From the IMG/VR virus record IMGVR_UViG_3300020596_000011, positions 1-64,000 of that record: a DNA stretch of 64,000 nucleotides. One strand, given 5' to 3'. The notes beneath the pieces are model-generated. The model made no database searches, was not told the DNA's origin, and worked only from the letters and a program-made list of their open reading frames with translations. Of the stretch, positions 23,224 through 48,780 are shown one piece after another. Source of the DNA: a virus. How positions within the stretch are numbered: the first letter of the stretch is position 1; the number at the start of each line of letters is the position of its first letter. Made by a program: the position numbers and the translations under genes.

Positions 23224-24770
23224 TGGCATTCTCAAACGTCTTTCAAATCATCAAAGACCTTACTCTATACCTTGGGCGTCAAGCGGGACTTCCGCCTACG
23301 TTTGACCTGCTGCCGCAAATAGCCCAAAACCGCTGGCCTTGGTTTTGTGCTCAGTGGCAACCTACTCTAAAGAGACAAATCTTCGCCGTCGCTGCGGGGG
23401 ACGAGCAACTTACTGTGCTCGCAAACCGATTGCAGCGTGACGTGGCAACGTACAATCTGGGAGCTACTGCCTACAACCCTTTTGCTTCATCGACAAGGTT
23501 TGCTGAGTACCAACCCCTTCTAGCCTCTATTTCACTTACGGACATTCAACCAGACGTGAATGAACAGCTAACGGTAAACCTTGAGCTGCAACGTATCGGT
23601 AAGTTCACGCTGGATACGTTTCTGTTAATGCGTTCTGCTCTTAAAAAACAAAACACAATCGCCACACAAGAAATAGGGTTGGGGGACGCAGACGCAAATA
23701 GAGTGACAGGCTTACCCACGGTATTGTCCCAAAGATCCGCACGCACGGACGACTACTATCAGCTCCAGTCGTTGTTTGAAATCGAAGAAACGCTCGACCA
23801 AATCATTTACGACTTTAAGCGCACGTCCGTGCAAAAGAGCCCTAATTTACTAGCTGCGGCAAACGCAAATATTACGGGTGGGTCCGCCGTAAGAATTAGA
23901 GAATCTTGGCGAACCTTTGTGGGGGTGCCCTTTTACCAATCTTTAGAAGTGATGGCTCAGCGTTATATGGGTTCCACCAATTTGTGGTACGAACTGGTTA
24001 CCGTAAACAACTTACAGGCACCTTATGTAGATGAATCGGGTATTAAATATCTTTTAAAAGCACCCGGCGCTGGCTTGAGCCTGCGTATTTCTTCAGATGC
24101 AATGACGCGAGTAAGGGTAGGTGCAAAGGTTCGTATTGGTTCTTTGACCAAACAAGCAGAAACACGGTTTATAGATAGAGTTGTCGAAAACTTAGATACC
24201 ACTATTACTCTTTATCTTTCGGGCGAACCTACCCTCGCATCTTTCAAAACCACTGAACAAGCATATGTACGCGCGTTTGCGCCGGACACCGTAAACTCCG
24301 ATTCGTTTATTAAGATTCCTCTAGACGTAGGGTCAGGCACTCAAAGCTTACCTGCACCGAAAGCCGATGTGTTAAAGCGGCTCGACAACGCATTAAGGGC
24401 GTTTGGGGTAGACGCGCTCAGGGCAGAAAACACAGGCGACCTTCTTATCGACAGCGGTGACTTTGCGCTCTCGTATGGAATTGCGAACGTGAGACAGAGT
24501 GTCCTTCAGGTACTAAGAACAAACCCTGGCGAACTTCCGTTTCACCCAAGGTTTGGTTTACCGGTAGAACCGGGAGACACTTGGACAGCATCGGTAGATG
24601 AAGGGCTTATTATTGCAGAACTTATACAGAACTCTATTCGCGCTGACGGTAGGTATTCATTCGTTATTGTGAGAAGCATTGTGACTACCGGATCTTCTGT
24701 GTCCATAGACCTGTTAGTGGGTGTACCTGGAGCTGACACTGCTATTCCATTAAGTTTTGTTTCAAATTAA
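23223..24770 (+). CDS. Baseplate wedge protein: LysM/gp53-like domain fused to gp25-like domain
   Basis: This encodes 515 residues. Residues 226-270 ('ESWRTFVGVPFYQSLEVMAQ' and 'NLWYELVTVNNLQAPYV') have the LysM-like pattern of gp53/XkdP wedge proteins. The C-terminal 130 residues ('LRTNPGELPFHPRFGLPVEP', then 'IIAELIQNSIRADGRYSFVI') match the gp25/W family found in every contractile baseplate, where it links the wedge to the first sheath ring. The N-terminal 200 residues have no motif I recognise. Its stop overlaps by two bases the stop of the convergent ankyrin gene, the last gene of the left array. Confidence 0.78.
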   Translation: MAFSNVFQIIKDLTLYLGRQAGLPPTFDLLPQIAQNRWPWFCAQWQPTLKRQIFAVAAGDEQLTVLANRLQRDVATYNLGATAYNPFASSTRFAEYQPLLASISLTDIQPDVNEQLTVNLELQRIGKFTLDTFLLMRSALKKQNTIATQEIGLGDADANRVTGLPTVLSQRSARTDDYYQLQSLFEIEETLDQIIYDFKRTSVQKSPNLLAAANANITGGSAVRIRESWRTFVGVPFYQSLEVMAQRYMGSTNLWYELVTVNNLQAPYVDESGIKYLLKAPGAGLSLRISSDAMTRVRVGAKVRIGSLTKQAETRFIDRVVENLDTTITLYLSGEPTLASFKTTEQAYVRAFAPDTVNSDSFIKIPLDVGSGTQSLPAPKADVLKRLDNALRAFGVDALRAENTGDLLIDSGDFALSYGIANVRQSVLQVLRTNPGELPFHPRFGLPVEPGDTWTASVDEGLIIAELIQNSIRADGRYSFVIVRSIVTTGSSVSIDLLVGVPGADTAIPLSFVSN

Positions 24771-25141
24771 ATAAGTTGTCTTACAACTTTAGGGTCAGAG
24801 TGCGGTATTAAAAACTGTACTATTTCGAAGTGACCATTCTCAGCAGCCCAGCGCAAAGCCTCAGAATAGTGAGCTTTAGGGTCGGAATGCGGTAGCAAAA
24901 ACTTAACTATTTCTAAGTGACCATTACCGGCAGCTACGCGAAAAGCCTGAGAACCATAAGCTTTAGGGTTAGCGTGCGGTAGTAAAAACTGCATTACTTC
25001 TAAATGACCGTTCAAAGCAGCCAAGCGCAAAGCCTCAGAATCTGAGCCTTTAGGGTCAACGAGCCTTGTTTCCACCAATCGCTTTACTGTCTCTAAATCG
25101 CCACTTTCGACTGCGTCCCAAAATTCATCTTGATAATTCAT
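24767..25141 (-). CDS. Ankyrin protein L9 (3 repeats)
   Basis: Last gene of the left array: 124 residues, with cap MNYQDEFWDAVESGDLETVK, three 29-residue ankyrin units and the end PKVVRQLI. This is the only array member ending QLI rather than QFI or EFI. ATG 25141 is used; a GTG two codons earlier is part of the GAGGTG binding site. Its stop overlaps the gp25-type gene's stop on the other strand, so the array begins with no spare DNA at this junction. Confidence 0.9.
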   Translation of the reverse strand: MNYQDEFWDAVESGDLETVKRLVETRLVDPKGSDSEALRLAALNGHLEVMQFLLPHANPKAYGSQAFRVAAGNGHLEIVKFLLPHSDPKAHYSEALRWAAENGHFEIVQFLIPHSDPKVVRQLI

Positions 25142-25148
25142 ACGCACC

Positions 25149-25958
25149 TCAGATAAATTGTCTTACCACTTCAGGGTCGGAGTACGGGAGTAAAAACTGT
25201 ACTACTTCTAAGTGCCCGTTCTCAGCAGCCGAGCGAAAAGCCTCAGAATCTTGAGCTTTAGGGTCGGAGTACGGTAGTAAAAACTGTACTACGTCTAAGT
25301 GCCCGTTCTCAGCAGCCGAGCGAAAAGCCTGAGAGCTATAAATTTTAGGGTCGGAATGCGGAAGTAAAAACTTAACTACTTCTACATGACCATTCTTAGC
25401 AGCCCAACGCAATGCCGCAGATTCGTAAACTTTAGGAGCGGAGTATGGTAGTAAAAACTTAACCATTTCTAAGTGACCGTAAGCCGCAGCCGAGCGAAAA
25501 GCCTCAGATTCACACGCTTGTGGGTCGGAGTACGGGAGTAAAAACTGTACTACGTCTAAATGACCATTCTTAGCAGCCCAGCGAAAAGCCTGAGAACTAT
25601 AAACTTCAGGGTCGGAATGCGGAAGTAAAAACTTAACTACTTTTAAGTGACCATTCTCAGCAGCCGAGCGAAAAGCCTGAGAATTGTAAGCTTTGGGGTC
25701 GGAATGCGGAAGTAAAAACTTAACTACTTTTAAGTGACCATTCTCAGCAGCCGAGCGAAAAGCCTGAGAATTGTAAGCTTTGGGGTCGGAATAAGGGAGC
25801 AAAAACTTAACTATTTCTAAGTGCGCTTTGTCAGCAGCCAAGCGAAAAGCCTCGGAATGGGTAGCTTTATCGTTAACTAGACCTGTTTCCACCAATCGCT
25901 TTACCGTATCTAGATCACTACGTCTGACTGCGTCCCAAAATTCAGCTCGATAATCCAT
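25149..25958 (-). CDS. Ankyrin protein L8 (8 repeats)
   Basis: The longest ankyrin protein here: 269 residues with eight 29-residue units between the cap (MDYRAEFWDAVRRSDLDTVK) and the end PEVVRQFI. Units two and three are identical in protein and in DNA. Each unit keeps the ankyrin core AAxxGHLxVVxFLLP but is four residues shorter than the usual 33, with SQAFR or SEAFR in place of the usual TPLH. The cytoplasmic partner is unknown. TGA overlaps the GAGGTG of the next gene. Confidence 0.92.
   Translation of the reverse strand: MDYRAEFWDAVRRSDLDTVKRLVETGLVNDKATHSEAFRLAADKAHLEIVKFLLPYSDPKAYNSQAFRSAAENGHLKVVKFLLPHSDPKAYNSQAFRSAAENGHLKVVKFLLPHSDPEVYSSQAFRWAAKNGHLDVVQFLLPYSDPQACESEAFRSAAAYGHLEMVKFLLPYSAPKVYESAALRWAAKNGHVEVVKFLLPHSDPKIYSSQAFRSAAENGHLDVVQFLLPYSDPKAQDSEAFRSAAENGHLEVVQFLLPYSDPEVVRQFI
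25621..25794 (-). repeat. Tandem 87-bp duplication inside ankyrin gene L8
   Basis: Positions 25621-25707 and 25708-25794 are two copies of one 87-bp unit, identical except at the last few bases. This is a very recent expansion of one repeat unit. Confidence 0.9.
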
Positions 25959-25965
25959 AATCACC

Positions 25966-26427
25966 TCAGATAAATTGTCTTACCACTTCAGGGTCGGAAT
26001 GCGGTATTAAAAACTTAACTATTTCTAAGTGACCTTTACTAGCAGCCCAGCGAAGAGCCTGAGAACCTAGGACTGTAGGGTCGGAGTACGGTAGTAAAAA
26101 CTTAACCATTTCTAAGTGACCGTTCAAAGCAGCAAAGCAAAAAGCCTCAGATTCACACGCTCGAGGGTCGGAGTATGGTAGCAAAAACTTAACTATTTCT
26201 AAGTCCCCATTCTCAGCAGCCCAGCAAAAAGCTTGAGAGCCCTTAGCTTCAGGGTCGGAAAGCGGGAACAAAAACTTAACTATTTCTAAGTGCCCGTTCA
26301 AAGCAGCAAAGCGAAAAGCCTGAGAATCATAAACTTTAGGGTCAACTAGACCTGCTTCCAGCAATCGTTGCACTGTATCTAAATCGCCACTTTTGGCTGC
26401 TTGTAAAAATTCAGCTTGATAATTCAT
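25966..26427 (-). CDS. Ankyrin protein L7 (4 repeats)
   Basis: This encodes 153 residues: cap MNYQAEFLQAAKSGDLDTVQ followed by RLLEAGLVD, four units and PEVVRQFI. The cap is of the 'LQAAKSG' type, otherwise mostly found in the right-hand array, suggesting exchange between arrays. One unit has 'FLFPLSDPEAKGS' in place of the usual FLLPYSD. ATG 26427 lies 3 bases after GAGGTG. Confidence 0.9.
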   Translation of the reverse strand: MNYQAEFLQAAKSGDLDTVQRLLEAGLVDPKVYDSQAFRFAALNGHLEIVKFLFPLSDPEAKGSQAFCWAAENGDLEIVKFLLPYSDPRACESEAFCFAALNGHLEMVKFLLPYSDPTVLGSQALRWAASKGHLEIVKFLIPHSDPEVVRQFI

Positions 26428-26434
26428 GGTCACC

Positions 26435-26809
26435 TCAGATAAATCGTCTTACAACTTCAGGGTCGGTATGGGGTAGTAAAAGCTTAACTACTTCTAAGTG
26501 ACCATGCTTAGCCGCCCAACGAAAAGCCTCAGAATTTTTAGCTTTAGGGTTAGAGTGCGGAAGTAAAAGCTTAACTATTTCTAAATGACCGTTCGCAGCG
26601 GCCCAACGCAAAGCCTGAGAATCTAGGGCTGTAGGGTCAGAGTGCGGAAGTAAAAACTTAACCATTTCTAAGTGACCGTTCAAAGCGGCAAAGCAAAAAG
26701 CCTCAGAATCTGAGCCTTGAGGGTTGACTAAACATGTTTCCACCAATCGCTTTACTGTATCTAAATCCCCACTTTCGACTGCGTCCCAAAATTCAGCTCG
26801 ATAATTCAT
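26435..26809 (-). CDS. Ankyrin protein L6 (3 repeats)
   Basis: This encodes 124 residues: cap MNYRAEFWDAVESGDLDTVK, three units, and the end PEVVRRFI, a one-residue variant of VVRQFI. The ribosome binding site here is GAGGTTG instead of GAGGTG, the same variant seen before gene L3. Confidence 0.9.
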   Translation of the reverse strand: MNYRAEFWDAVESGDLDTVKRLVETCLVNPQGSDSEAFCFAALNGHLEMVKFLLPHSDPTALDSQALRWAAANGHLEIVKLLLPHSNPKAKNSEAFRWAAKHGHLEVVKLLLPHTDPEVVRRFI

Positions 26810-26816
26810 GGCAACC

Positions 26817-27380
26817 TCAGATAAATTGTCTTACCACTTCAGGGTCGGTATGGGGTAGCAAAAACTTAACTATTTCTAAGTGCCCATTCTCAGCAGCAAA
26901 GCAAAAAGCCTCAGAATATTTAGCTTTAGGGTCGGAGTGCGGGAGTAAAAACTTAACTATTTCTAAGTGACCCTTCCAGGCAGCCCAGCAAAAAGCCCGA
27001 GAATCTAGGGCTGTAGGGTCGGAGTGCGGGAGTAAAAACTTAACCATTTCTAAATGACCGTTCAAAGCAGCCAAGCGCAAAGCCTCAGAATCTGAGCCTT
27101 TAGGGTCGGAGTGCGGGAGTAAAAACTTAACTACGTTTAAATGACCATTCTCAGCAGCCCAGCAAAAAGCCTGAGAATCTAGGACCGTAGGGTCGGAGTA
27201 CGGGAGTAAAAACTGTACTACGTCTAAGTGCCCGTTCAAAGCAGCCCAGCGAAAAGCCTGAAAATCATAAACTTCAGGGTCAACTAAACCTGCTTCCACC
27301 AATCGTTGCACTGTATCTAAATCGCCACTTTTGACTGCGTCCCAAAATTCAGCGTCACAAAATGCAGCTTGATACTTCAT
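26817..27380 (-). CDS. Ankyrin protein L5 (5 repeats, extended cap)
   Basis: This encodes 187 residues with five units and the end PEVVRQFI. The cap reads MKYQAAFCDAEFWDAVKSGD, five residues longer than the others because the AF/EF segment is duplicated. Two units carry FC instead of FR, giving extra Cys, as in some other members. Confidence 0.9.
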   Translation of the reverse strand: MKYQAAFCDAEFWDAVKSGDLDTVQRLVEAGLVDPEVYDFQAFRWAALNGHLDVVQFLLPYSDPTVLDSQAFCWAAENGHLNVVKFLLPHSDPKGSDSEALRLAALNGHLEMVKFLLPHSDPTALDSRAFCWAAWKGHLEIVKFLLPHSDPKAKYSEAFCFAAENGHLEIVKFLLPHTDPEVVRQFI

Positions 27381-27387
27381 GGTCACC

Positions 27388-28110
27388 TCAGATAAATTGT
27401 CTTACCACTTCAGGGTCGGTATGGGGTAGCAAAAACTTAACTATTTCTAAGTGACCCTTCGCAGCAGCCGAGCGAAAAGCATCAGAATCTGAGCCTTTAG
27501 GGTCGGAGTAGGGTAGCAAAAACTTAACTACTTCTAAACGCCCGCTACGGGCAGCCGAGCGCAAAGCATCAGATTCACACGCCCGAGGGTCGGAGTACGG
27601 TACTAAAAACTGTACTACGTCTAAATGACCATTCTCAGCAGCCCAGCGCAAAGCCTCCGAATCGTAAGCTTTGGGGTCGGAGTAAGGTACTAAAAACTGT
27701 ACTATTTCTAAGTGCCCATTCTCAGCAGCCAAGCGAAAAGCCGCGGAACCTTGAGCTTTAGGGTCGGAATGCGGTAGCAAAAACTTAACTACTTCTAAGC
27801 GACCGCACCCCGCAGCACGGCGAAAAGCCTGAGAATCGTAAGCTGTAGGGTCGGAATGTGGTAGTAAAACCTGTACTATTTCTAAATAACCATGGGAAGC
27901 AGCCCAACGCAATGCCTGAGATTCTTGCGCTGTAGGGTCGGAATGCGGTAGTAAAAACTGTACTATTTCTAAATAACCATGGGAAGCCGCCGACCGCAAA
28001 GCCTCGGAATGGGTAGCTTTATCGTTAACTAAACATGTTTCCACCAATCGCTTTACTGTGTCTAGATCGCCACTTCTGACTGCTTGTAAAAAACCATGCT
28101 GATAATCCAT
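27388..28110 (-). CDS. Ankyrin protein L4 (7 repeats)
   Basis: This encodes 240 residues with seven units. Several units have variable helix-turn residues (AASHGYLEIVQ, AAGCGRLEVVK, AARSGRLEVVK), and the positions just before the SxAF motif differ in every unit. Variation at such positions while the core stays fixed is what is expected where repeats face a binding partner. It ends PEVVRQFI. Confidence 0.9.
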   Translation of the reverse strand: MDYQHGFLQAVRSGDLDTVKRLVETCLVNDKATHSEALRSAASHGYLEIVQFLLPHSDPTAQESQALRWAASHGYLEIVQVLLPHSDPTAYDSQAFRRAAGCGRLEVVKFLLPHSDPKAQGSAAFRLAAENGHLEIVQFLVPYSDPKAYDSEALRWAAENGHLDVVQFLVPYSDPRACESDALRSAARSGRLEVVKFLLPYSDPKGSDSDAFRSAAAKGHLEIVKFLLPHTDPEVVRQFI

Positions 28111-28117
28111 GCGCACC

Positions 28118-28579
28118 TCAGATAAATTGTCTTACCACTTCAGGGTCGGTATGGGGTAGCAAAAACTTAACTATTTCTAAGTCCCCATTCTCCGCAGCAA
28201 AGCGAAAAGCCTGAGAACCTTTAGCTTTAGGGTCAGAGTATGGTCGCAAAAACTTAACTACTTCTAAATGACCATTACCGGCAGCAAAGCGAAAAGCCTG
28301 AGAATTGTTAGCTTTAGGGTCAGAGTATGGTAGCAAAAACTTAACTACTTCTAAATGACCATTACCGGCAGCACGTCGAAAAGCCTCAAAATTGTAAGCT
28401 TCAGGGTCGGAATGCGGTAGTAAAAACTTAACCATTTCTAAGTGACCGTGCAAAGCGGCAAAGCACAAAGCCTGAGAATGGTGAGCTTTATCGTTAACTA
28501 AACATGTTTCCACCAATCGCTTTACTGTGTCTAAATCGCCACTTTCGACTGCGTGCCAAAATTCATCTTGATAATCCAT
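28118..28579 (-). CDS. Ankyrin protein L3 (4 repeats)
   Basis: This encodes 153 residues: cap MDYQDEFWHAVESGDLDTVK, four units and PEVVRQFI. Units two and three are close copies (AAGNGHLEVVKFLLPYSD and AAGNGHLEVVKFLRPYSD), differing by an Arg in the normally Leu-Leu position. The binding site for the next gene overlaps its stop. Confidence 0.9.
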   Translation of the reverse strand: MDYQDEFWHAVESGDLDTVKRLVETCLVNDKAHHSQALCFAALHGHLEMVKFLLPHSDPEAYNFEAFRRAAGNGHLEVVKFLLPYSDPKANNSQAFRFAAGNGHLEVVKFLRPYSDPKAKGSQAFRFAAENGDLEIVKFLLPHTDPEVVRQFI

Positions 28580-28586
28580 GGCAACC

Positions 28587-29048
28587 TCAGATAAATTGTC
28601 TTACCGCTTTAGGGTCAGAGTACGGTAGTAAAAACTTAACTACTTCTAAATACCCGTTCAAAGCAGCCCAGCGAAAAGCCTCCGAATCGTAAGCTTTGGG
28701 GTCGGAGTATGGTAGTAAAAACTTAACTACTTCTAAATGACCATTCTCAGCAGCAAAGCGAAAAGCCTGAGAATTGTTAGCTTTAGGGTCGGAGTATGGT
28801 AGTAAAAACTTAACTACTTCTAAATGACCATTCTCAGCAGCACGGCGAAAAGCCTGAGAACCATAAACTTTAGGGTCGGAGTAAGGTATTAAAAACTGTA
28901 CTACTTCTAAGTGCCCGTTCAAAGCAGCAAAGCGCAAAGCCTCAGAATTGTTAGCTGTAGGGTCAACGAGCCTTGTTTCCACCAATCGCTTTACTGTATC
29001 TAAATCGCCACTTTCGACTGTGTACCAAAATTCGTCTTGATAATTCAT
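28587..29048 (-). CDS. Ankyrin protein L2 (4 repeats)
   Basis: This encodes 153 residues: cap MNYQDEFWYTVESGDLDTVK, four units and the end PKAVRQFI. Three of the four units contain AAENGHLEVVKFLLPYSD or nearly so, another sign of recent duplication. ATG 29048 is used. Confidence 0.9.
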   Translation of the reverse strand: MNYQDEFWYTVESGDLDTVKRLVETRLVDPTANNSEALRFAALNGHLEVVQFLIPYSDPKVYGSQAFRRAAENGHLEVVKFLLPYSDPKANNSQAFRFAAENGHLEVVKFLLPYSDPKAYDSEAFRWAALNGYLEVVKFLLPYSDPKAVRQFI

Positions 29049-29055
29049 GGTCACC

Positions 29056-29604
29056 TCAGATAAATTGTCTTACCGCTTTAGGGTCAGAGTGCGGAAGTAA
29101 AAATTTAACTACTTCTAAATGACCATTTTCAGCAGCAAAGCGAAAAGCCTCAGAATCTTGAGCTTTAGGGTCGGAGTAAGGTACTAAAAACTTAACTACT
29201 TCTAAATACCCGTTCAAAGCAGCCCAACGAAAAGCCTGAAAACTATAAGCTTTAGGGTCGGAGTATGGTAGTAAAAACTTAACTACTTCTAAATGACCAT
29301 GAGCAGCGGCCCAACGCAAAGCCCCAGAATAGTGAGCTTCAGGGTCGGAGTACGGTAGTAAAAACTTAACTACTTCTAAGTGCCCGTTCTCAGCAGCCCA
29401 ACGAAAAGCCTGAGAGCCCTCAGCTTTAGGGTCAAAGTAAGGTACTAAAAACTGTACTATTTCTAAGTGCCCATTCTCAGCAGCCCTCTGAAACGCGCGA
29501 AATTCATCTACAATGTGGTCAACTAAACCTGCTTCCACCAATCGCTTTACCGTAGCCAAATCGCCACTTTCGACTGCTTGTGAAAAATCAGCTTGATAAT
29601 CCAT
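29056..29604 (-). CDS. Ankyrin protein L1 (5 repeats, first gene of left array)
   Basis: This encodes 182 residues: cap MDYQADFSQAVESGDLATVK, five units, end PKAVRQFI. The first unit is irregular (HIVDEFRAFQRAAENGHLEI). Its binding site is AAAGGTTG, different from the GAGGTG or GAGGTTG of internal genes, as expected for a first gene with no preceding array member. No sigma-28-like site is visible in the 33-base gap to the membrane protein gene upstream, so the array may be read from a promoter in front of that gene. Confidence 0.9.
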   Translation of the reverse strand: MDYQADFSQAVESGDLATVKRLVEAGLVDHIVDEFRAFQRAAENGHLEIVQFLVPYFDPKAEGSQAFRWAAENGHLEVVKFLLPYSDPEAHYSGALRWAAAHGHLEVVKFLLPYSDPKAYSFQAFRWAALNGYLEVVKFLVPYSDPKAQDSEAFRFAAENGHLEVVKFLLPHSDPKAVRQFI

Positions 29605-29637: not shown

Positions 29638-30069
29638 TCATCTCGTCTCCAAGTAAATCAATCTACCAAGAATTACGACTACGGGCGCAAGCCAAAGCAG
29701 CAACTGAAGCACGGAATCCGGGCGTAACGCCTCTGTAAACAAATCCCAAAAACCAATGGACTGGAGCCCGAGGGACACCAAAAAAGAAACGGCGATGAGG
29801 CAAGGTATCCAAAATAGTTTGTTATCTTTTTTCACCACCTTTTCCGAAAACCGCTGCGCAACTACAATTGTTTTGTTTTCCCAGCCTACCACCTCCGCGC
29901 ACCAAAATATTTCTCCGTCCCAACACACGTGCGTTCGCTTAGTGCCATCGACTAGTTTTAAGAATTCCGGTGGTTCATCAGACCATCGCACCTGAAGCGT
30001 GTTACCTACGCGCCGGTAGACGCCCTTACCTTCGCCAAATCCTATCCAGCTATTTACAAACTCACTCAT
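29638..30069 (-). CDS. Membrane protein, hypothetical
   Basis: This encodes 143 residues. ATG 30069 is preferred over 30096 because purine-rich AGAGAGTGAAG precedes it. The N-terminal 85 residues are soluble with many Trp and strands ('RRVGNTLQVRWSDEPPEFLK', 'VCWDGEIFWCAEVVGWENK'). Two transmembrane helices follow: about 88-108 ('WIPCLIAVSFLVSLGLQSI') and about 122-140 ('LLLWLAPVVVILGRLIYL'). I recognise no family. It lies directly upstream of the left ankyrin array on the same strand and could be co-expressed with it. A membrane partner for the ankyrin proteins is a testable guess. Confidence 0.6.
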   Translation of the reverse strand: MSEFVNSWIGFGEGKGVYRRVGNTLQVRWSDEPPEFLKLVDGTKRTHVCWDGEIFWCAEVVGWENKTIVVAQRFSEKVVKKDNKLFWIPCLIAVSFLVSLGLQSIGFWDLFTEALRPDSVLQLLLWLAPVVVILGRLIYLETR

Positions 30070-30117
30070 CTTCACTCTCTTTCGGTATCCGCTCATCTTG
30101 AATGAATTCGGTGCAAT

Positions 30118-31338
30118 TCATTTTTCGCATTTCCCGCTACTCAGCGGGATTTTAAAATCAAGACTAAAGTCGCTCGTCGTTGCGGTTAACATTTCTTTCT
30201 GACAAATCGCCCTTGAAATCTCAACTATTCGATTTGCCAACTTCCATGCGAGTAAGGGGGGAACAGCATTTCCAATTGCTTTGTATGATGAAGAGGCGCT
30301 TGTGACCCCTACGAATTCAAAGTCATCAGGGAATGTTTGTAGTCGCGCACATTCACGCACAGTGAGTCGTCGTTGCTGAAATTTTGTCTCTTCCAATTTG
30401 TTGTTAATTCCACCATTTTGAGCGGACAAACGACGAAATTCAATGTTTCCATGATGTTCACTTCTTATTGTTGGAGCAGGCCTATCAATTCTGACTTCAA
30501 TTTGACCTTGAGAACCATTGTCTAAATATCTACATTTAGAAAAGTGCTGTTGAGATTGATCATCCGATTGATTAGGTTCATCTAGTCCACTGAATGCATA
30601 TTTTGTCGTCGGGACTATTCCTTGATTTCCAAGGTGGGACTTATCGGGAAAAAACGATGGCAATTGTTTTAAAAACACCGCTCTTTCGAAATTTTTTGCG
30701 ATATCATCGATTCTTACGCCGATTACAATCAGCCTTTCCCGTTTCTGTGGGATACCATATTCGGCACAATTGACCAGTTGCCACTGGACTGAATAGCCCA
30801 AGTCTTTCAGTCGATTCTTCAAGTCTGAAAAGACGGTACCATTCTCTGCCGAAAGGAGACCTTTCACATTCTCAGCAATTATAAATCTTGGCTGGAGCTG
30901 CTCAATTGCTTTTAACATATATATATAGAGTGACCCCCTAGACACTTTGCTTGAAGTGTTTATTAGTCCTGTGTGACTACGATGAGATAACGTGCCTCTT
31001 CTTGCCCCAGCAAAACTGAAATCTTGGCAAGGAAATCCTCCCGATACAAGGAATGGCCGCTCGAAAGACTTTAGCACTTGAGACTCAACTATCTCTACAA
31101 TACTTTGCGACTCGTACTGCCCTAGCCTACTCCTTTTATTAAAGTATGCCTTATGAATATCCATAGCTGAAGTACAAATATCATTGATAAATACCGTTTC
31201 TATCCCCGTGGATTCAAGCCATATTTTTCTTGTTTTTCCGGTTCTCTTTAAATCCAGATAGCTACTAAACGTCTCAAATCCGCCCTCGATCCCCAGATCC
31301 ATTCCACCACAGCCTGAAAAAAAAGAAAAATGTCTCAT
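30118..31338 (-). CDS. DNA (cytosine-5) methyltransferase
   Basis: This encodes 406 residues. ATG 31338 is used because GGAGG lies 6 bases upstream; an earlier ATG at 31365 overlaps the previous gene. All core motifs of a C5 methylase are present: I, FFSGCGGMDLG (6-16); IV with the catalytic Cys, GFPCQDFS (101-108); VI, AENV (155-158); VIII, QKRER (198-202); the variable target region about 205-320; IX, 'RRLTVRECARLQTFPDDF'; X, GNAVPP (356-361). It transfers methyl from AdoMet to cytosine; the target site cannot be read from sequence. No restriction partner is nearby, so it likely protects phage DNA. The gene looks more AT-rich than the virion genes. Confidence 0.93.
   Translation of the reverse strand: MRHFSFFSGCGGMDLGIEGGFETFSSYLDLKRTGKTRKIWLESTGIETVFINDICTSAMDIHKAYFNKRSRLGQYESQSIVEIVESQVLKSFERPFLVSGGFPCQDFSFAGARRGTLSHRSHTGLINTSSKVSRGSLYIYMLKAIEQLQPRFIIAENVKGLLSAENGTVFSDLKNRLKDLGYSVQWQLVNCAEYGIPQKRERLIVIGVRIDDIAKNFERAVFLKQLPSFFPDKSHLGNQGIVPTTKYAFSGLDEPNQSDDQSQQHFSKCRYLDNGSQGQIEVRIDRPAPTIRSEHHGNIEFRRLSAQNGGINNKLEETKFQQRRLTVRECARLQTFPDDFEFVGVTSASSSYKAIGNAVPPLLAWKLANRIVEISRAICQKEMLTATTSDFSLDFKIPLSSGKCEK
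30132..30153 (+). terminator. Hairpin in the 3' end of the methyltransferase gene
   Basis: TCCCGCT (30132-30138) and AGCGGGA (30143-30149) form a 7-bp stem with a 4-base loop. On the plus strand it is followed by TTTTA, so it would stop plus-strand read-through. It lies within the last codons of the minus-strand gene. Confidence 0.5.
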
Positions 31339-31357
31339 TGTGCCTCCATTTGTTTCT

Positions 31358-31708
31358 TTAGTCATTATCTTCCACCCAGATTTCTTTCGTTAGCCTATTA
31401 CCGCTTTCATCGAGTGCTTCAGGCGCATCAAGGTCTATTCTATTGCACCAATAAAAGCTAGCCAAGTTTAAGTAACAATAATACGTTATCCTTCTCATAT
31501 TCGGCTTCGCGGGTTGATCGATAGCATCCACTAGAGAGCACGGGTAATCCATGCTGGGCCGCGACATGCGGTGACCTGAGGGCCATTCTTGAAAATATAC
31601 GACACCATTTTCGCGACGATAATGCCAGACCCATCCAAAAGTATCTCTAAAGCTCTGCATATTATACGGCTTCACTCGCTCTGCAAATTGGCTCCAAGTT
31701 TCTTTCAT
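31358..31708 (-). CDS. Hypothetical protein upstream of the methyltransferase
   Basis: This encodes 116 residues, ATG with GAGAGGTG upstream. It is Trp/Tyr-rich ('FRDTFGWVWHYRRENGVVYF', then 'QEWPSGHRMSRPS') with an acidic C-terminus (EIWVEDND). There is no transmembrane segment and no family I recognise. Its end overlaps one possible start of the methyltransferase gene, so the two are likely co-transcribed. Confidence 0.6.
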   Translation of the reverse strand: MKETWSQFAERVKPYNMQSFRDTFGWVWHYRRENGVVYFQEWPSGHRMSRPSMDYPCSLVDAIDQPAKPNMRRITYYCYLNLASFYWCNRIDLDAPEALDESGNRLTKEIWVEDND

Positions 31709-41986: not shown

Positions 41987-41997
41987 GCCCTGCGGCC

Positions 41998-42027: not shown

Positions 42028-44613
42028 ATGGCGAATCTTTCAAGCGTAAACTGGATACCGAGTCAGCGAGTAGACGTCAGTGACATGCGGGCTATTGAGT
42101 CCTACGTCGCTAGTGACCTTCGCGCCCTTGTCAACATGATCACTGGCCCTAGCGAACCCTTCGTGGTTAGAGGCTTTGAGGTTATCGCAGCAGGGAACGC
42201 CCAGATCTCTCTTTCCCTCGCTAATGCTATGGTTTTTACGCCCGCAGGCGGTGTAGGGTCTTTCTACCTAGGTACCGCAGCTCAAGCCGACCTCGTTGTC
42301 CCCTTGGTAAAAGGCGCAACTAACTATATCCAACTCGTATTCAAACGCGAATCTCAAACCTCAGTTACTCGCGGTATCTGGGATCAGACTTCTCCCACAG
42401 GCGACTCCCCAGCGGGAACCCAATTTACTGCGTCTGTGAAAATCCAAAACGTAATGGTCCCCGACGAAGTCAGCCTCGTCTCACAAGCAGGTCGCATCGA
42501 AGGCGCGGCGTCAATTGCAATTGTAGACGTTGCTTCAGACGGAACAGTCTCAAACTTTAGAGACGACCGCACTCTTTTGTTTCGTCAAGGTCGACCAACC
42601 GATCCCACGTACCAATTCCCCTGGGCAACCACAAGACAAGAGCCAGTTCAAAGTACAACACTCGCTTCAAACCTTGCCGACACCAACACAGCGTCTGTCT
42701 ATTACGCACGAGACGCAGCTACTGGTAAAGTTGTCAACGACAAAGGGATTACTAACCTTAAAGATTTCTTTGACGCCCTTATGACTTCGCTAGGCGAGAT
42801 CAGAGGCTCGTCGGTATGGTACGCAGGTTCCGGTTCCTCTGTTTATTTGAACAACCTTAACTTGAACACAGCGTACATGGATTCCGAAGCAGGGCACCAC
42901 TGGGAGCCTAAAGCTAATGCGTTCATTCAATGGTCGAAGCCCGACGCAGCTACCGGTGTACCTGACTTTAAACTCCGGGCTTCCGCCACTGACACCATCT
43001 CTTGGGGTCTCAACTACGGAAACGTAAGGTGGGAACTCGGCGGCGCTTACACTTCAGACGTGTCGACTAACGGCTCACTAAGCCGCAGGTCTTTTAGCGG
43101 AACCGCTGCGGATAACTTATTCGTTTCAGGGGTAATTGCTAGCGGCTTAAACGTTTACCTTGCGCTTGAAAGAGACACCACTCCCGCAGGCGCATCAACC
43201 AATACTGTGACGTGGTCGCCATCTGTTCTCCCGTCGTTTTCAGCAGCCGCTCTTTGGGACGTAGCTTACACGGTCTCGGGTATCAAAGGCGACTTTACCG
43301 GTATCGCTATTGGTGACTGGGTAAAAAAGGCAACAGACGGGCAGTGGGCTTACTACAAAGTACGCCGCTTACTCGTTGATAACGGAACATCTTCGGGTGT
43401 GCAGGTAGGAGCCACGGGCTCTTCCGCAAGCCCTACGATTATCGCAGGCGACGATGGCGCAGTAGCAAACAACAACGTGGTTGCCCTAGAGCTTGACCGC
43501 TCCCTTGTCCCTGCTGGGACAGTAGTCCAACAGCTTTTTTGGTTTCGTTCTAAATATGCGAGCGGTGACGTCATTGTGGAAACACTTGCTCAACGCAACC
43601 AAGCCATTCCACCTTACCGGTCTACGTCGTACTACTGGCTAGGCTACGCCTACGACAACGCCGGTACTTTCACAGGCCGCTACTTCTCCCTTCGCAATTA
43701 CGGCACCATGTCCCCAGGTGAAGAAGTACAGTCGCTCGATGATTCGGACCAAGCGATTGACTACACCGCAGGCAACTCCGAGTTTGCGATTGACTTCCCA
43801 AATAATATTGCTTATAGCGCCTCGACGCTTACCGGCACTTCATTTCTCGCAAACATTGCAAGACGCCTTACCAACAACCTTATCCCGAATGCTGGCGGCG
43901 CAGCCAACAAAGCCTCAATCAATTATCAAATTGTCGCAGGGGGATCTCTTGGTATCAGTGTAGGTCAAGAGCTGTGGGTAAACCTACAGGATTCTTACTC
44001 TGCTAGCGTAATCACGTTGATAGCCGGAGTCGTGACAGCCACAGCGAACACGTACGAAGTGCGTTCAGCCACAGCAGCACCCATTAGAAGCCTAACCAAC
44101 CGCAACGTGTTTTGCTTAGGCCGTGTCACAACGGACGGTTATTTTCAGTTTATTGACGGCACGAAGGTCGCTTCTTCGGGCTTGTTCGACAGAAGCCCAA
44201 GGCTTATAAACAACGTGCTTGTAGGCGGTAACGCAGTTGTCCCCTTGACGGCTACAAACACCCTGACGCTTGGATCGGCTACAGGGGTGACTAGGCTCTC
44301 GGGCGGCCAAATTATTAAAAGACGGTTCACGAACACACTTAGCACTCAACTCACCCTTGCGGACTATCTCATATCCGTAGACACAAACACTATCGCAGCA
44401 GTGGGGATTACCACGATTCTCCCCAACACGTCGACATTGGTTGCGGGTCAGGTATTTTGTATAAAAGACTCTACTGGAAAAGCGGACCTATACCCAATCG
44501 ACGTTGTCGGTTTTGCGGGCGAGCTTATCGATGGCGAGGCTTTTCAGTCCATTAATTCTAATTATGAACAAATGACTGTCGTGTGGACTGGAAGTTATTA
44601 CGAAATAGTTTAA
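42028..44613 (+). CDS. Tail fibre / receptor-binding structural protein
   Basis: This encodes 861 residues, ATG with CGGAG upstream. The N-terminus ('SSVNWIPSQRVDVSDMRAIE') looks like a baseplate-attachment domain. The middle is made of beta modules rich in Ser, Thr, Gly and aromatic residues. The C-terminus ('KDSTGKADLYPIDVVGFAGE', then 'YEQMTVVWTGSYYEIV') is a short beta-domain often found at the end of phage surface proteins, where trimerisation or receptor contact occurs. It is the last virion gene before the right ankyrin array. No chaperone gene follows. Confidence 0.65.
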   Translation: MANLSSVNWIPSQRVDVSDMRAIESYVASDLRALVNMITGPSEPFVVRGFEVIAAGNAQISLSLANAMVFTPAGGVGSFYLGTAAQADLVVPLVKGATNYIQLVFKRESQTSVTRGIWDQTSPTGDSPAGTQFTASVKIQNVMVPDEVSLVSQAGRIEGAASIAIVDVASDGTVSNFRDDRTLLFRQGRPTDPTYQFPWATTRQEPVQSTTLASNLADTNTASVYYARDAATGKVVNDKGITNLKDFFDALMTSLGEIRGSSVWYAGSGSSVYLNNLNLNTAYMDSEAGHHWEPKANAFIQWSKPDAATGVPDFKLRASATDTISWGLNYGNVRWELGGAYTSDVSTNGSLSRRSFSGTAADNLFVSGVIASGLNVYLALERDTTPAGASTNTVTWSPSVLPSFSAAALWDVAYTVSGIKGDFTGIAIGDWVKKATDGQWAYYKVRRLLVDNGTSSGVQVGATGSSASPTIIAGDDGAVANNNVVALELDRSLVPAGTVVQQLFWFRSKYASGDVIVETLAQRNQAIPPYRSTSYYWLGYAYDNAGTFTGRYFSLRNYGTMSPGEEVQSLDDSDQAIDYTAGNSEFAIDFPNNIAYSASTLTGTSFLANIARRLTNNLIPNAGGAANKASINYQIVAGGSLGISVGQELWVNLQDSYSASVITLIAGVVTATANTYEVRSATAAPIRSLTNRNVFCLGRVTTDGYFQFIDGTKVASSGLFDRSPRLINNVLVGGNAVVPLTATNTLTLGSATGVTRLSGGQIIKRRFTNTLSTQLTLADYLISVDTNTIAAVGITTILPNTSTLVAGQVFCIKDSTGKADLYPIDVVGFAGELIDGEAFQSINSNYEQMTVVWTGSYYEIV

Positions 44614-44637
44614 AGTCGTGTAGGGTTGTTCCGATAG
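44610..44637 (+). promoter_or_regulatory. Sigma-28-like promoter for the right ankyrin array
   Basis: TTAAAGTC starts at 44610 and overlaps the fibre stop codon. TCCGATAG lies at 44630-44637, with 15 bases between TAAA and the octamer. It is 17 bases from the first ankyrin start. Confidence 0.65.
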
Positions 44638-44653
44638 TACATTTGAGGTGCGC

Positions 44654-45376
44654 ATGGATTATCAATATGTATTTTTACTAGCCGCCAAAAATGGCGATTT
44701 AGGCACAGTAAAGCGATTGGTGGAAGCAGGTCTAGTTGACCCTAAAGATAGTGATGCTCTCTTGTTGCGCTTGGCTGCCAGTAACGGTCACTTAGAAGTA
44801 GTTAAGTTTTTACTCCCGCACTCCGACCCTAAAGCTAACGCTACTGAGGCTTTTCGCCGTGCTGCGGCTTACGGTCATTTAGAAGTAGTTAAGTTTTTGC
44901 TACCGCACTCCAACACTAAAGTTCAAAATTCTCAGGCTTTTCGCTTTGCTGCGGCTCACGGTCATTTAGAAGTAGTTAAGTTTTTACTACCGTACTCTGA
45001 CCCTAAAGCTAACTATTCTGAGGCTTTTCGCTTGGCTGCGGCTCACGGTCGTTTAGAAGTAGTACAGTTTTTGCTACCCTACTCTGACCCTAAAGCTAAC
45101 GCTTCTACGGCTTTGCGTTGGGCTGCTAAGAATGGTCGTTTAGAAGTAGTACAGTTTTTGCAACCACACTCCGACCCTAAAGCTCAAAATTCTGAGGCTT
45201 TTCGTTGGGCGGCTTCGTACGGTTACCTAGGCGTAGTTAAGTTTTTACTACCGTACTCCGACCCTAAAGCTGACAATTCTCAGGCTTTTCGCTCGGCTGC
45301 TGCGAAGGGGCACTTAGAAATAGTTAAGTTTTTGCTACCCCATACCGACCCTGAAGTGGTAAGACAATTTATCTGA
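44654..45376 (+). CDS. Ankyrin protein R1 (7 repeats)
   Basis: First gene of the right array: 240 residues, cap MDYQYVFLLAAKNGDLGTVK then RLVEAGLVD, seven 29-residue units and the end PEVVRQFI. The first unit has an altered start (KDSDALLLRLAASNGHLEVV). Others differ mainly in the residues before SxAF and in the AAxxG loop. ATG 44654 lies 3 bases after GAGGTG. It has the same number of units as L4 in the left array. Confidence 0.92.
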   Translation: MDYQYVFLLAAKNGDLGTVKRLVEAGLVDPKDSDALLLRLAASNGHLEVVKFLLPHSDPKANATEAFRRAAAYGHLEVVKFLLPHSNTKVQNSQAFRFAAAHGHLEVVKFLLPYSDPKANYSEAFRLAAAHGRLEVVQFLLPYSDPKANASTALRWAAKNGRLEVVQFLQPHSDPKAQNSEAFRWAASYGYLGVVKFLLPYSDPKADNSQAFRSAAAKGHLEIVKFLLPHTDPEVVRQFI

Positions 45377-45384
45377 GGTGAAAC

Positions 45385-45969
45385 ATGGAATACTTATTAG
45401 CGCTTGCTCTCGCTCCGATACTGTTCGCGGGTGGGTTTGCAGTCGTTATGGCGTGGCTGGGTAAGTTTGAAACGCCAGCGCGAGGAAAGGGAAGGCCCAA
45501 AAGCAGCCTGGGGGATTACCCAAACATATCTGTGCGCGCAGCTATGCGAGGTGCCTTAGATACGGTAAAGCGATTTGTGGGAACATATCGATTTGACCTA
45601 AGGTCCGATAACGGTTCCGCTTTTCGTATGGCTGCTGACAAAGGTCATTTAGAAATAGTTAAGTTTTTACTACCATACTCCGACCCTCCAGCCCTAGATC
45701 ATGCTTTTCGCATGGCTGCCTGGACCGGTCATTTAGAAATAGTTAAGTTTTTACTACCACATTCCGACCCTGAAGCTCACTATTCTGAGGCTTTTTGTTG
45801 GGCTGCTGAGAATGGTCACTTAGAAATAGTTAAGCTTTTGCTACCGTACTCTGACCCTAAAGCTCAAGATTCTCAGGCTTTTCGCTTTGCTGCTGAAAAT
45901 GGTCACTTAGAAGTAGTTAAGTTTTTACTACCGCACTCCGACCCTGAAGTGGTAAGAGAATTTATCTGA
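45385..45969 (+). CDS. Membrane-anchored ankyrin protein R2 (4 repeats)
   Basis: This encodes 194 residues. It is unlike all others in that residues 3-25 form a transmembrane helix (LLALALAPILFAGGFAVVMA), followed by a basic linker rich in Lys, Arg and Gly (GKFETPARGKGRPKSS). The ankyrin cap then resumes ('RAAMRGALDTVKRFVGTYRF') with four units, one of only 28 residues. The end is PEVVREFI. Positive charges after the helix put the repeats on the cytoplasmic side. A block of about 170 bases is nearly identical to gene R5. Confidence 0.9.
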   Translation: MEYLLALALAPILFAGGFAVVMAWLGKFETPARGKGRPKSSLGDYPNISVRAAMRGALDTVKRFVGTYRFDLRSDNGSAFRMAADKGHLEIVKFLLPYSDPPALDHAFRMAAWTGHLEIVKFLLPHSDPEAHYSEAFCWAAENGHLEIVKLLLPYSDPKAQDSQAFRFAAENGHLEVVKFLLPHSDPEVVREFI

Positions 45970-45976
45970 GGTGTAT

Positions 45977-46438
45977 ATGTATTATCGAGATGTATTTTTG
46001 CGAGCAGCCAACAGTGGCGATTTAGGTACAGTAAAGCTGTCGGTGGAAGCAGGTCTAGTTGACGTGAAGGCTCATGCTTCTGAGGCGTTGCGTTGGGCTG
46101 CTGAAAATGGTCATTTAGAAGTAGTTAAGTTTTTGCTACCATACGCCGACCCACAAGCGTGTGAATCTGAGGCTTTTCGTTGGGCTGCTGCGCATGGTCA
46201 TTTAGAAGTAGTTAAGTTTTTGCTACTTTACTCCGACCCTACAGCTAATAATTCTCAGGCTTTTCGCTTTGCTGCGGCTCACGGTCACTTAGAGATAGTT
46301 AAGTTTTTGTTACCGTATGCCGACCCTAAAGCTAACGCTTCTGAGGCTTTTCGTTGGGCTGCTAAGAATGGTCATTTAGAAACAGCTAAGTTTTTACTTC
46401 CGCACTCTGACCCTATAGTCGTAAGACAATTTATCTGA
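45977..46438 (+). CDS. Ankyrin protein R3 (4 repeats)
   Basis: This encodes 153 residues: cap MYYRDVFLRAANSGDLGTVK with LSVEAGLVD (Ser replacing the usual Arg), four units, end PIVVRQFI. One unit reads FLLLYSDP instead of FLLPYSDP. ATG 45977 follows GAGGTG. Confidence 0.9.
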   Translation: MYYRDVFLRAANSGDLGTVKLSVEAGLVDVKAHASEALRWAAENGHLEVVKFLLPYADPQACESEAFRWAAAHGHLEVVKFLLLYSDPTANNSQAFRFAAAHGHLEIVKFLLPYADPKANASEAFRWAAKNGHLETAKFLLPHSDPIVVRQFI

Positions 46439-46445
46439 GGTGCAT

Positions 46446-46994
46446 ATGGATCATCAAGCTGAATTTTTGATAGCCGCCAAAAGTGGCGATTTAGACACAG
46501 TAAAGCGATTGCTGGAAGCAGGTCTAGTTGACCCTAAAGCTAGCGAGGCTCTCTCGTTGCGCTGCGCTGCTGTGTACGGTCACTTAGAAGTAGTTAAGGT
46601 TTTACTCCCGCACTCCGACCCTAAAGCTAACGCTACTGAGGCTTTTCGCGCGGCTACTTTGTACGACCAGTTAGAAATAGTTAAGTTTTTACTACCATAC
46701 GTCGACCCTACAGAGCAAGAATCTCGGGCATTGCGTTGGGCTGCTTCCCATGGTTATTTAGAAATAGTTAAGTTTTTACTACCGCACGCTAACCCTAAAG
46801 CTAAAGATTCTCAGGCTTTTTGCTCGGCTGCCAGTCACGGTCATTTAGAAGTAGTTAAGTTTTTGCTACCATACTCCGACCCGAAAGCGCAAGAATCGGG
46901 GGCTTTTCGCTCGGCTGCTGAGCAGGGGCATTTAGAAGTAATGCAGTTTTTACTACCGCATTCCGACCCTAAAATTGTAAGGCAATTTATCTGA
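46446..46994 (+). CDS. Ankyrin protein R4 (5 repeats)
   Basis: This encodes 182 residues: cap MDHQAEFLIAAKSGDLDTVK, five units and PKIVRQFI. The third unit begins PTEQESRALRWAASHGYLEI, and 'AATLYDQLEIVKFLLPYVDP' breaks the GH of the usual ENGHLE loop, so some units are diverging while others remain close copies. Confidence 0.9.
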   Translation: MDHQAEFLIAAKSGDLDTVKRLLEAGLVDPKASEALSLRCAAVYGHLEVVKVLLPHSDPKANATEAFRAATLYDQLEIVKFLLPYVDPTEQESRALRWAASHGYLEIVKFLLPHANPKAKDSQAFCSAASHGHLEVVKFLLPYSDPKAQESGAFRSAAEQGHLEVMQFLLPHSDPKIVRQFI

Positions 46995-47001
46995 GGTGCG
47001 T

Positions 47002-47460
47002 ATGGATTATCAAGATGAATTTTTACAAGCAGTCCAAAGTGACGATTTAGATACAGTAAAGCAATTGGTGGAAGCAGGTCTAGTTGACCCGCAAATTTAC
47101 GGCCCTGAGGCTTTTCGTTGGGCTGCTTGGTACGGTCATTTAGAAGTAGTTAAATTTTTACTTCAGCACTCCGACCCTACAGCCCTAGATCATGCTTTTC
47201 GCATGGCTGCCTGGACCGGTCATTTAGAAATAGTTAAGTTTTTACTACCGCATTCCGACCCCAAAGCTCACTATTCTGAGGCTTTTCGTTGGGCTGCTGA
47301 GAATGGTCACTTAGAAATAGTTAAGCTTTTGCTACCGTGCTCTGACCCTAAAGCGCAAGAATCGGGGGCTTTTTGCTTGGCTGCCCGTAACGGTCACTTA
47401 GAAATAGTTAAGTTTTTACTACCGCATTCCGACCCTGAAGTGGTAAGACAATTTATCTGA
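47002..47460 (+). CDS. Ankyrin protein R5 (4 repeats)
   Basis: This encodes 152 residues: cap MDYQDEFLQAVQSDDLDTVK, four units (one of 28 residues, PTALDHAFRMAAWTGHLEIV), end PEVVRQFI. It shares the 28-residue unit and neighbouring DNA with gene R2, evidence of recent gene conversion or segmental copying within the array. Confidence 0.9.
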   Translation: MDYQDEFLQAVQSDDLDTVKQLVEAGLVDPQIYGPEAFRWAAWYGHLEVVKFLLQHSDPTALDHAFRMAAWTGHLEIVKFLLPHSDPKAHYSEAFRWAAENGHLEIVKLLLPCSDPKAQESGAFCLAARNGHLEIVKFLLPHSDPEVVRQFI

Positions 47461-47467
47461 GGTGCAC

Positions 47468-47929
47468 ATGGATTATCAAGATGAATTTTTACAAGCAGTC
47501 CAAAGTGGCGATTTAGATACAGTAAAGCAATTGGTGGAAGCAGGTCTAGTTGACCACACGCTCGATGGATTTGGCGCTTTTCGCGTGGCTGCTTCGTATG
47601 GGTATTTAGAAACAGCTAAGTTTTTACTGCCATTTTCTGATCCTAAAGCTAAAGAATCTGCTCCTATTCGCTTGGCGGCTTCGTACGGTTACCTAGACGT
47701 AGTTAAGTTTTTACTACCGCATTCCGACCCTACAGCTAACAATTCTCAGGCTTTTCGCTTTGCTGCGGCTCACGGCCATTTAGAAATAGTTAAGTTTTTA
47801 CTACCGCACTCCGACCCTAAAGCTAACTATTCTGATGCTTTTCGCTTGGCTGCTTTGAACGGTCATTTAGAAGTAGTTAAGTTTTTACTACCCCATACCG
47901 ACCCTAAAGTTGTAAGACAATTTATCTGA
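47468..47929 (+). CDS. Ankyrin protein R6 (4 repeats)
   Basis: This encodes 153 residues: cap MDYQDEFLQAVQSGDLDTVK, almost identical to that of R5, then a diverged first unit (HTLDGFGAFRVAASYGYLET), three regular units and PKVVRQFI. The diverged first unit recalls that of L1 (HIVDEFRAFQRAAENG), linking the two arrays. Confidence 0.9.
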   Translation: MDYQDEFLQAVQSGDLDTVKQLVEAGLVDHTLDGFGAFRVAASYGYLETAKFLLPFSDPKAKESAPIRLAASYGYLDVVKFLLPHSDPTANNSQAFRFAAAHGHLEIVKFLLPHSDPKANYSDAFRLAALNGHLEVVKFLLPHTDPKVVRQFI

Positions 47930-47936
47930 GGTGCAT

Positions 47937-48398
47937 ATGAATTATCAAGCTGAATTTTTACAAGCCGCCAAAAGTGGCGATTTAGGCACAGTAAAGCGAT
48001 TGGTGGAAGCAGGTCTAGGTGACCCCAAGCTTCACGAATCTCACGCTTTTCGCCGTGCTGCGGCTCACGGTCATTTAGAAGTAGTTAAGTTTTTACTACC
48101 TTACTCTGACCCTAAAGTTTACGAATCTGCGGCATTGCGTTGGGCTGCTGCGAACGGGTATTTAGAAGTAATGCGGTTTTTAATACTTTACTCCGACCCT
48201 GAAGCTAACAATTCTCAGGCTTTGCGTTGGGCCGCTGCGAACGGTCATTTAGAAATAGTTAAGCTTTTACTACCCCATACCGACCCTAAAGTTTACGGAT
48301 CTGCGGCATTGCGTTGGGCTGCTGCGAACGGGTACTTAGAAGTAGTTAAGTTTTTACTACCTTACTCCGACCCTAAAGTTGTAAGACAATTTATCTGA
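47937..48398 (+). CDS. Ankyrin protein R7 (4 repeats)
   Basis: This encodes 153 residues: cap MNYQAEFLQAAKSGDLGTVK with RLVEAGLGD, four units, end PKVVRQFI. Units two and four are near copies (SAALRWAAANGYLEV). One unit has 'FLILYSD' in place of FLLPYSD. Confidence 0.9.
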   Translation: MNYQAEFLQAAKSGDLGTVKRLVEAGLGDPKLHESHAFRRAAAHGHLEVVKFLLPYSDPKVYESAALRWAAANGYLEVMRFLILYSDPEANNSQALRWAAANGHLEIVKLLLPHTDPKVYGSAALRWAAANGYLEVVKFLLPYSDPKVVRQFI

Positions 48399-48405
48399 GG
48401 TGCAC

Positions 48406-48780
48406 ATGGATTATCAAGCTGAATTTTTACAAGCAGTCAAAAGTGGCGATTTAGATACAGTACGGCGGTTGGTGGAAACATATCGATTTGACCCAGGGTC
48501 CGATAACTGTTACGCTTTTCGCTTGGCTGCTGACAAAGCGCACTTAGCAATAGTTAAGTTTTTGCTCCCTTATTCCGACCCCAAAGCTTACAATTCTGAG
48601 GCTTTTCGTTGGGCTGCTGACAAAGGTCATTTAGAAATAGTTAAGTTTTTACTACCATACTCCGACCCTAAAGCTTACGGCTCTGATGCTTTTCGCTTGG
48701 CTGCTTTGAACGGTCATTTAGAAGTAGTTAAGTTTTTACTACCCCATACCGACCCTAAAGTTGTAAGACAATTCATTTGA
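48406..48780 (+). CDS. Ankyrin protein R8 (3 repeats, last of right array)
   Basis: This encodes 124 residues: cap MDYQAEFLQAVKSGDLDTVR, with the unusual RLVETYRFDPGSDNCYAF shared with R2 (TYRFDLRSDNGSAF), three units, and the end PKVVRQFI. No ankyrin gene follows; a sigma-28-like site for the next gene begins shortly after the stop. Confidence 0.9.
   Translation: MDYQAEFLQAVKSGDLDTVRRLVETYRFDPGSDNCYAFRLAADKAHLAIVKFLLPYSDPKAYNSEAFRWAADKGHLEIVKFLLPYSDPKAYGSDAFRLAALNGHLEVVKFLLPHTDPKVVRQFI

Follow-up and report, generated by a model that had tools for sequence, protein, structure and literature searches.

A family of twenty short-unit ankyrin-repeat genes in the structural region of a tailed phage genome

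Genes for ankyrin-repeat proteins are already known from tailed phages. Phage WO carries multiple ankyrin genes (PMC9203015), and in phages associated with sponges and corals the ankyrin proteins have been assigned the role of eukaryote-directed effectors (PMC11309003, PMC9203015). Large ankyrin sets also occur in the big DNA viruses of eukaryotes, namely mimivirus and other giant viruses and the poxviruses. Some poxvirus ankyrin proteins link their targets to the ubiquitin machinery. In T-even phages, the internal proteins have been described as diverse inhibitors of defence preceded by a conserved targeting sequence, and some of them inhibit restriction enzymes of the host (PMC3012670); phages in general can amplify anti-defence genes under pressure (PMC13096335). 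Here we describe a family of ankyrin-repeat genes on a 64,000-nucleotide stretch of DNA, positions 1 to 64,000 of IMG/VR record IMGVR_UViG_3300020596_000011 (147,886 bases); the whole stretch is called the window, and coordinates are those of the window unless stated otherwise. The genome is that of a tailed bacteriophage, as marked by a major head protein, a baseplate J protein and a terminase. The family consists of 20 genes in three clusters, all of which lie inside the structural gene region. No counterpart of such an array, with 20 genes, units that lack the ankyrin finger and a constant tail, was found in the phage collection or the open-access literature searched; within these sources, what is new is the size and type of the array and not the presence of ankyrin genes in a phage.

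The described systems resemble this locus only in part. Phage WO and the sponge-symbiont ankyphages likewise carry ankyrin-repeat genes in tailed-phage genomes, but identity is about 30%, the role proposed for them is directed at eukaryotes, and no array of short, near-identical cassettes is described for them in the literature searched. The giant-virus and poxvirus families are comparable as large sets, but they belong to eukaryotic viruses, have units of 30-33 residues and in some cases F-box ends, and no shared ancestry is claimed. Ankyrin genes with units of a 30-residue type occur on other viral contigs. One of these contigs, an uncultivated T4-like fragment unrelated to the present phage (IMGVR_UViG_3300037264_007062, loci L038 and L047; called G237 below), has about ten ankyrin paralogs among its virion genes. 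Like the phage studied here, G237 shows multigene ankyrin clusters with constant ends among the virion genes of a contractile phage; unlike it, G237 has 30-residue units with the usual GADIHA loop, an N-terminus resembling the T4 capsid targeting sequence and the tail FGLFxDD. With some ten copies in G237 and multiple genes in WO (PMC9203015), the earlier generalization that phage ankyrin genes usually number one or a few per genome has to be relaxed.

A first-pass annotation, made from the letters of the window, had listed seventeen ankyrin genes with about 78 units of a shortened repeat. All seventeen were recovered intact and in place, nine on the minus strand (24767-29604) and eight on the plus strand (44648-48780), with 2962 codons free of internal stops and frameshifts. 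When units were counted backwards from the constant C-terminal tail, the total was 78, comprising 76 of exactly 29 amino acids and two of 28, in addition to 17 N-terminal half-repeat caps. The genome search also matched a region at 11.5-12.4 kb that seemed broken and that, on reading, resolved into three short intact open reading frames (ORFs), each ending in R-Q-Y-I (SFIRQYI, HTLRQYI and ELVRQYI). As this divergent trio has the same fold and tail, the family count rises from 17 to 20; beyond these 20 members, the R-Q-[FY]-I tail occurs in no further ORF of the phage. The members are as follows.

24767..25147, minus strand: ankyrin gene, array 1, last in the string, 3 units, probable ATG start at 25141
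25149..25964, minus strand: ankyrin gene, array 1, 8 units, with the same protein sequence in units 2 and 3, probable ATG start at 25958
25966..26433, minus strand: ankyrin gene, array 1, 4 units
26435..26809, minus strand: ankyrin gene, array 1, 3 units
26817..27386, minus strand: ankyrin gene, array 1, 5 units, N-terminal cap with a 5-residue insertion
27388..28116, minus strand: ankyrin gene, array 1, 7 units
28118..28579, minus strand: ankyrin gene, array 1, 4 units
28587..29054, minus strand: ankyrin gene, array 1, 4 units
29056..29604, minus strand: ankyrin gene, array 1, first in the string, 5 units, protein modelled
44648..45376, plus strand: ankyrin gene, array 2, 7 units, probable ATG start at 44654, 34 nucleotides (nt) 3' of a tail-fibre-like gene
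45385..45969, plus strand: ankyrin gene, array 2, N-terminal hydrophobic anchor (reasonable from sequence), one cap-like and 4 further units (one of 28 amino acids)
45971..46438, plus strand: ankyrin gene, array 2, 4 units
46440..46994, plus strand: ankyrin gene, array 2, 5 units
46996..47460, plus strand: ankyrin gene, array 2, 4 units (one of 28 amino acids, within a 70-nt run exactly common to the gene at 45385)
47462..47929, plus strand: ankyrin gene, array 2, 4 units
47931..48398, plus strand: ankyrin gene, array 2, 4 units
48400..48780, plus strand: ankyrin gene, array 2, last, 3 units
11536..11817, plus strand: divergent small ankyrin-like member, tail SFIRQYI, Pfam Ank_2 E = 9e-8
11829..12143, plus strand: divergent small ankyrin-like member, tail HTLRQYI
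12156..12437, plus strand: divergent small ankyrin-like member, tail ELVRQYI, assigned to the family from this tail, its position and the alignment, with no Pfam match of its own

Profile and structure comparisons agree on the ankyrin fold. Array members match Pfam Ank_2 (PF12796) with E down to 7e-46; against a cut-off of 27.3 bits, two array members score 104-155 bits and the member with the hydrophobic N-terminus 90 bits, while the trio gives 33 bits, 23 bits (under the cut-off) and no match. Alignment to ankyrins in the PDB shows that the 29-residue unit misses about four residues in the beta-hairpin region. The AlphaFold2 model of the protein of gene 29056..29604 is a helical solenoid of ankyrin type (predicted local distance difference test, pLDDT, 89; predicted template modelling score, pTM, 0.82) that contains helices and no strand, with helix 1 spanning roughly positions 3-13 of the unit and helix 2 positions 17-26. 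The model of 11536..11817 has the same helix pairs and a terminal cap helix, and both models have pLDDT of 89-90. The best PDB matches of the array-member model are designed ankyrin proteins, and its best viral matches are amoeba giant-virus ankyrins, from mimivirus and pithovirus. The stacked antiparallel helix pairs of ankyrin proteins are thus present in both the models and the fold matches, whereas the 33-residue unit with its beta-hairpin finger is not; the missing finger is a variant of the ankyrin repeat and no ground for excluding the family. The tail of the trio is kept as protein although its codons differ, which points to selection on the protein.

The protein of gene 45385-45969 opens with a hydrophobic stretch, LLALALAPILFAGGFAVVMAWLG, so that the earlier description of one member as membrane-anchored is reasonable. 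The same description had the other members lacking signal peptides, and a hydrophobic N-terminus is indeed absent from 19 of the 20 members, as judged by reading the sequences and not by a signal-peptide program.

Across units, a fixed core is combined with a few changing positions, as had been noticed at the first reading. Per-column counts place the peaks of change at unit positions 3, 4, 6, 10 and 13, all of them in helix 1, with little variation in helix 2 or the AA..GH core. The framework has a ratio of nonsynonymous to synonymous substitution rates (dN/dS) of about 0.28 and is under purifying selection. When one array was used to pick the five most variable columns and the other to test them, the same five emerged and exceeded the synonymous rate, with dN/dS of 1.89 and 1.61. 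The combination of residues at these five positions is distinct in 71 of the 76 full-length units. These values suggest, short of proof, diversifying selection at the variable positions.

The units also seem to travel. For 66 of 76 units, the nearest relative sits in a different gene, and for 21 of 76 it sits in the opposite array; exact runs of up to 92 nt are shared between genes, so units appear to move by recombination. No diversity-generating retroelement turned up among the families met in the domain scans, none of which was a search aimed at reverse transcriptase.

Relatives of the 29-residue type were sought by a pattern scan covering 84,980 species genomes. The closest matches (53-55%) were in two bacteria, Rhodanobacteraceae MAG-228 (JAEUPP010000020.1) and Tahibacter aquaticus (NZ_SNZH01000004.1), in which 95% and 89% of the repeat spacings, respectively, are of 29 residues, compared with 6% at other bacterial loci. 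In their units, 21 of 29 consensus residues are identical to those of the phage, and variability falls at the same positions. The tree places them with the phage and separates them from the 30-residue viral type at moderate support (89/72); the two bacteria are firmly joined to each other (100/97). Like the phage genes, the bacterial genes form tandem clusters with a variable body and a constant C-terminal end; unlike them, they are longer and chromosomal, with a separate C-terminal region that ends in R-R-x-S-L. Close matches were found in only 2 of 234 genomes of the family, hence a sporadic distribution, and in 2 of 369 of the class, one of these with longer frames. With either profile, no other viral contig in the phage collection carried the 29-residue type. 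One Tahibacter copy adjoins PD-Lambda-2_B, with a CBASS-type phospholipase a few kb off, and one MAG-228 cluster adjoins the candidates PDC-S73 and PDC-S02. As a separate observation, a Candidatus Micrarchaeota genome bin (L072, JAKAWW010000001.1 714221-730787) holds at least 13 tandem, slightly overlapping ankyrin genes.

At nearly every junction within the arrays, a stop codon is followed directly by a Shine-Dalgarno sequence and a start, TGAGGTGnnnATG; most genes end in ...VRQFI-TGAGGTGnnnATG, and the stop overlaps the next Shine-Dalgarno sequence. Cassettes of this design could presumably be gained or lost without harm to their neighbours. Where a GTG start is listed, it sits within a Shine-Dalgarno sequence, GAGGTG, that overlaps the stop of the preceding gene, and the true start is therefore probably the ATG 6 nt downstream. 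Promoter and terminator scans gave nothing above chance. Array 1 lies on the strand opposite to the surrounding structural genes and continues, head-to-tail, a minus-strand string of three genes, given here as context.

31358..31708, minus strand: 116-amino-acid ORF heading the string, no family match
30118..31365, minus strand: C5-cytosine DNA methyltransferase, Pfam PF00145, E = 1.6e-56
29638..30096, minus strand: 152-amino-acid protein containing hydrophobic segments, without a match in Pfam or PHROG, located 33 nt upstream of array 1

The same phage recurs, circularly permuted, in a second record, IMGVR_UViG_3300020057_000001 (160,071 bp). This record carries both arrays unchanged, supplies about 12 kb absent from the 147,886-base record, and opens inside ankyrin gene 25149-25964, at the two units of identical protein sequence. 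Where compared, the two records are 100% identical outside the contig ends and a tandem repeat (15585-15809) of the probable tape-measure gene, a repeat that differs between the contigs by assembly or strain. An assembly artefact was considered for the arrays and rejected: the agreement of a second contig across both arrays argues against misassembly, with the reservation that contigs 100% identical there may derive from shared reads and may not be independent evidence. The terminase has 29% identity to that of Myxococcus phage Mx1, and the major capsid protein 31% to a single 15-kb contig. Searches for syntenic relatives with the major capsid, the terminase and a baseplate-region gene returned only the same phage and that one 15-kb fragment at 31%, which leaves the phage too isolated for an analysis of gain and loss.

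Several other features were recorded along the way. The terminase large subunit gene (50949-53411) has, on reading, an apparent intein-type insertion. The phage encodes several DNA methyltransferases, and a second cytosine methyltransferase (60892-62226, minus strand) lies beside a weak Dam-like match. A large chaperonin (Cpn60/GroEL) homologue is encoded at L012:5184-7874 (minus strand). Paralogous ORFs at 4053-5579 of the window and at L009:6869-8599 contain repeated KYG-type motifs and are possibly mobile endonucleases; a distant phage fragment, L167, has several ORFs similar to them. Outside the window's contig, locus L027 (G001:122100-134500) contains three giant tandem paralogs of 833-1578 amino acids (ORFs 29-2536, 2593-7329 and 7399-9900), in which another helical repeat, about 26 residues long (HPLLNASHIDHIVQEAPHIAAEYLKD), occurs many times; neither of the two tested has a Pfam match, and the three make up a second expanded solenoid family of this phage. 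A 496-amino-acid protein (L010:6040-7530, minus strand, equal to G000 90040-91530) has an N-terminal stretch like the 26-residue repeats and no Pfam match, and its motif set YRGV, SWS and EEE recalls ADP-ribosyltransferases.

On balance, and with confidence a little better than even, we consider that the arrays encode a diversified family of intracellular protein binders. The support lies in the combination of a conserved framework, variable helix-1 positions and residue combinations that are mostly distinct. Host defence would be the leading candidate target, which we put forward tentatively; it is favoured by circumstantial evidence, namely the methyltransferase string and bacterial relatives that partly lie beside defence genes. 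Binding, a cytoplasmic location and a defence target are what we infer from these patterns. The first-pass annotation had likewise proposed binders diversifying towards many host or competitor targets; a multigene and mostly soluble ankyrin family with a constant core and changing surface positions is consistent with the binder part of that proposal, and support for the target part is circumstantial. Several points weigh against our interpretation. With a contact set fixed beforehand from designed ankyrin proteins, dN/dS was just 1.05-1.29, and the variable positions were not significantly clustered on one face of the helix (p = 0.17). Quick divergence between repeat copies is general in repeat proteins (PMC5120217), so that excess variation alone is no proof of an arms race. 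The identity of the arrays in the two records leaves no strain variation to compare. Other bacterial copies lie among ordinary genes, and the adjacency to defence genes comes without a neighbourhood-enrichment control.

If this interpretation holds, the products would be small ankyrin-type binders made within the infected bacterium, each with an N-terminal cap, a few finger-less units (3-8 in array members) and, at the C-terminus, a constant cap helix. Specificity would come mainly from the inner-helix positions 3, 4, 6, 10 and 13, together with the number and order of units. As self-contained cassettes, copies could be duplicated, lost and recombined while their neighbours stay expressed, and diversification would proceed by tandem duplication, by units passing from gene to gene and from array to array, and by selection favouring new residues at the binding positions. 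The most likely use would be to bind several host proteins and neutralise or sequester them, with anti-phage defences as the first candidates.

The rival that survives best is that the proteins are associated with the virion, either delivered with the DNA like the T4 internal proteins or acting as chaperones for large tail or fibre proteins. The location of all three clusters among structural genes is in its favour, and so is G237, in which the ankyrin paralogs among the virion genes have N-termini (M[IL]KF[EQ]QYL.E) resembling the T4 targeting peptide (MKTYQEFIAE, present in IPII and IPIII of the T4 record) and a non-ankyrin protein opens with MKSFQQYLFE. In the phage described here, however, no non-ankyrin ORF was found to carry the N-terminal motif of the family, so a capsid targeting tag of the T4 type is not supported; array 1 runs opposite to the nearby structural genes, and chaperones would not require 20 differing copies. 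T4 IPI-IPIII are a parallel only in the way they work, as a diverse set of phage proteins that share one constant tag; they are non-ankyrin proteins, their tag is N-terminal and cleaved, and they are packaged. We regard a virion role as unlikely.

Less likely still is that the proteins are effectors which the bacterial host exports to the cells of an animal or a protist, in the way suggested for the ankyphages and WO. That role has been assigned to ankyrins of sponge- and coral-associated phages (PMC11309003, PMC9203015), and the closest viral structures are those of amoeba viruses; but this likeness is one of the general ankyrin fold, nearly all members lack a hydrophobic N-terminus, and the closest relatives are in Rhodanobacteraceae genomes, with defence genes adjoining.

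A variant of the binder family, which we hold to be improbable, is that its members serve as modular adaptors, in which the variable ankyrin body would recognise many host proteins and the constant RQ[FY]I tail would dock to one shared machine. That machine might be a protease, a chaperonin or a virion component, and a single machine would in this way be aimed at many targets, comparable to the link that some poxvirus ankyrin proteins make between targets and the ubiquitin machinery; the bacterial relatives, with their other constant end, would be a matching host-side repertoire. A largely non-adaptive expansion, in which recombination multiplies repeats that the phage tolerates, can draw on the exchange of units between genes and arrays, on the general acceleration of repeat-copy divergence (PMC5120217) and on the second expanded helical-repeat family, but is equally doubtful in view of 20 intact ORFs, a framework dN/dS of about 0.28, start signals kept at nearly every junction and a trio tail conserved as protein with differing codons.

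Should the members of the diversified binder family bind different host proteins, they would form, in one phage, a natural counterpart of the designed ankyrin binder libraries, and each member could be used as bait for phage-relevant host factors, including unknown defence systems. The family also suggests that multigene ankyrin sets, well known from pox and giant viruses, emerged in tailed phages in parallel, both here and in G237.

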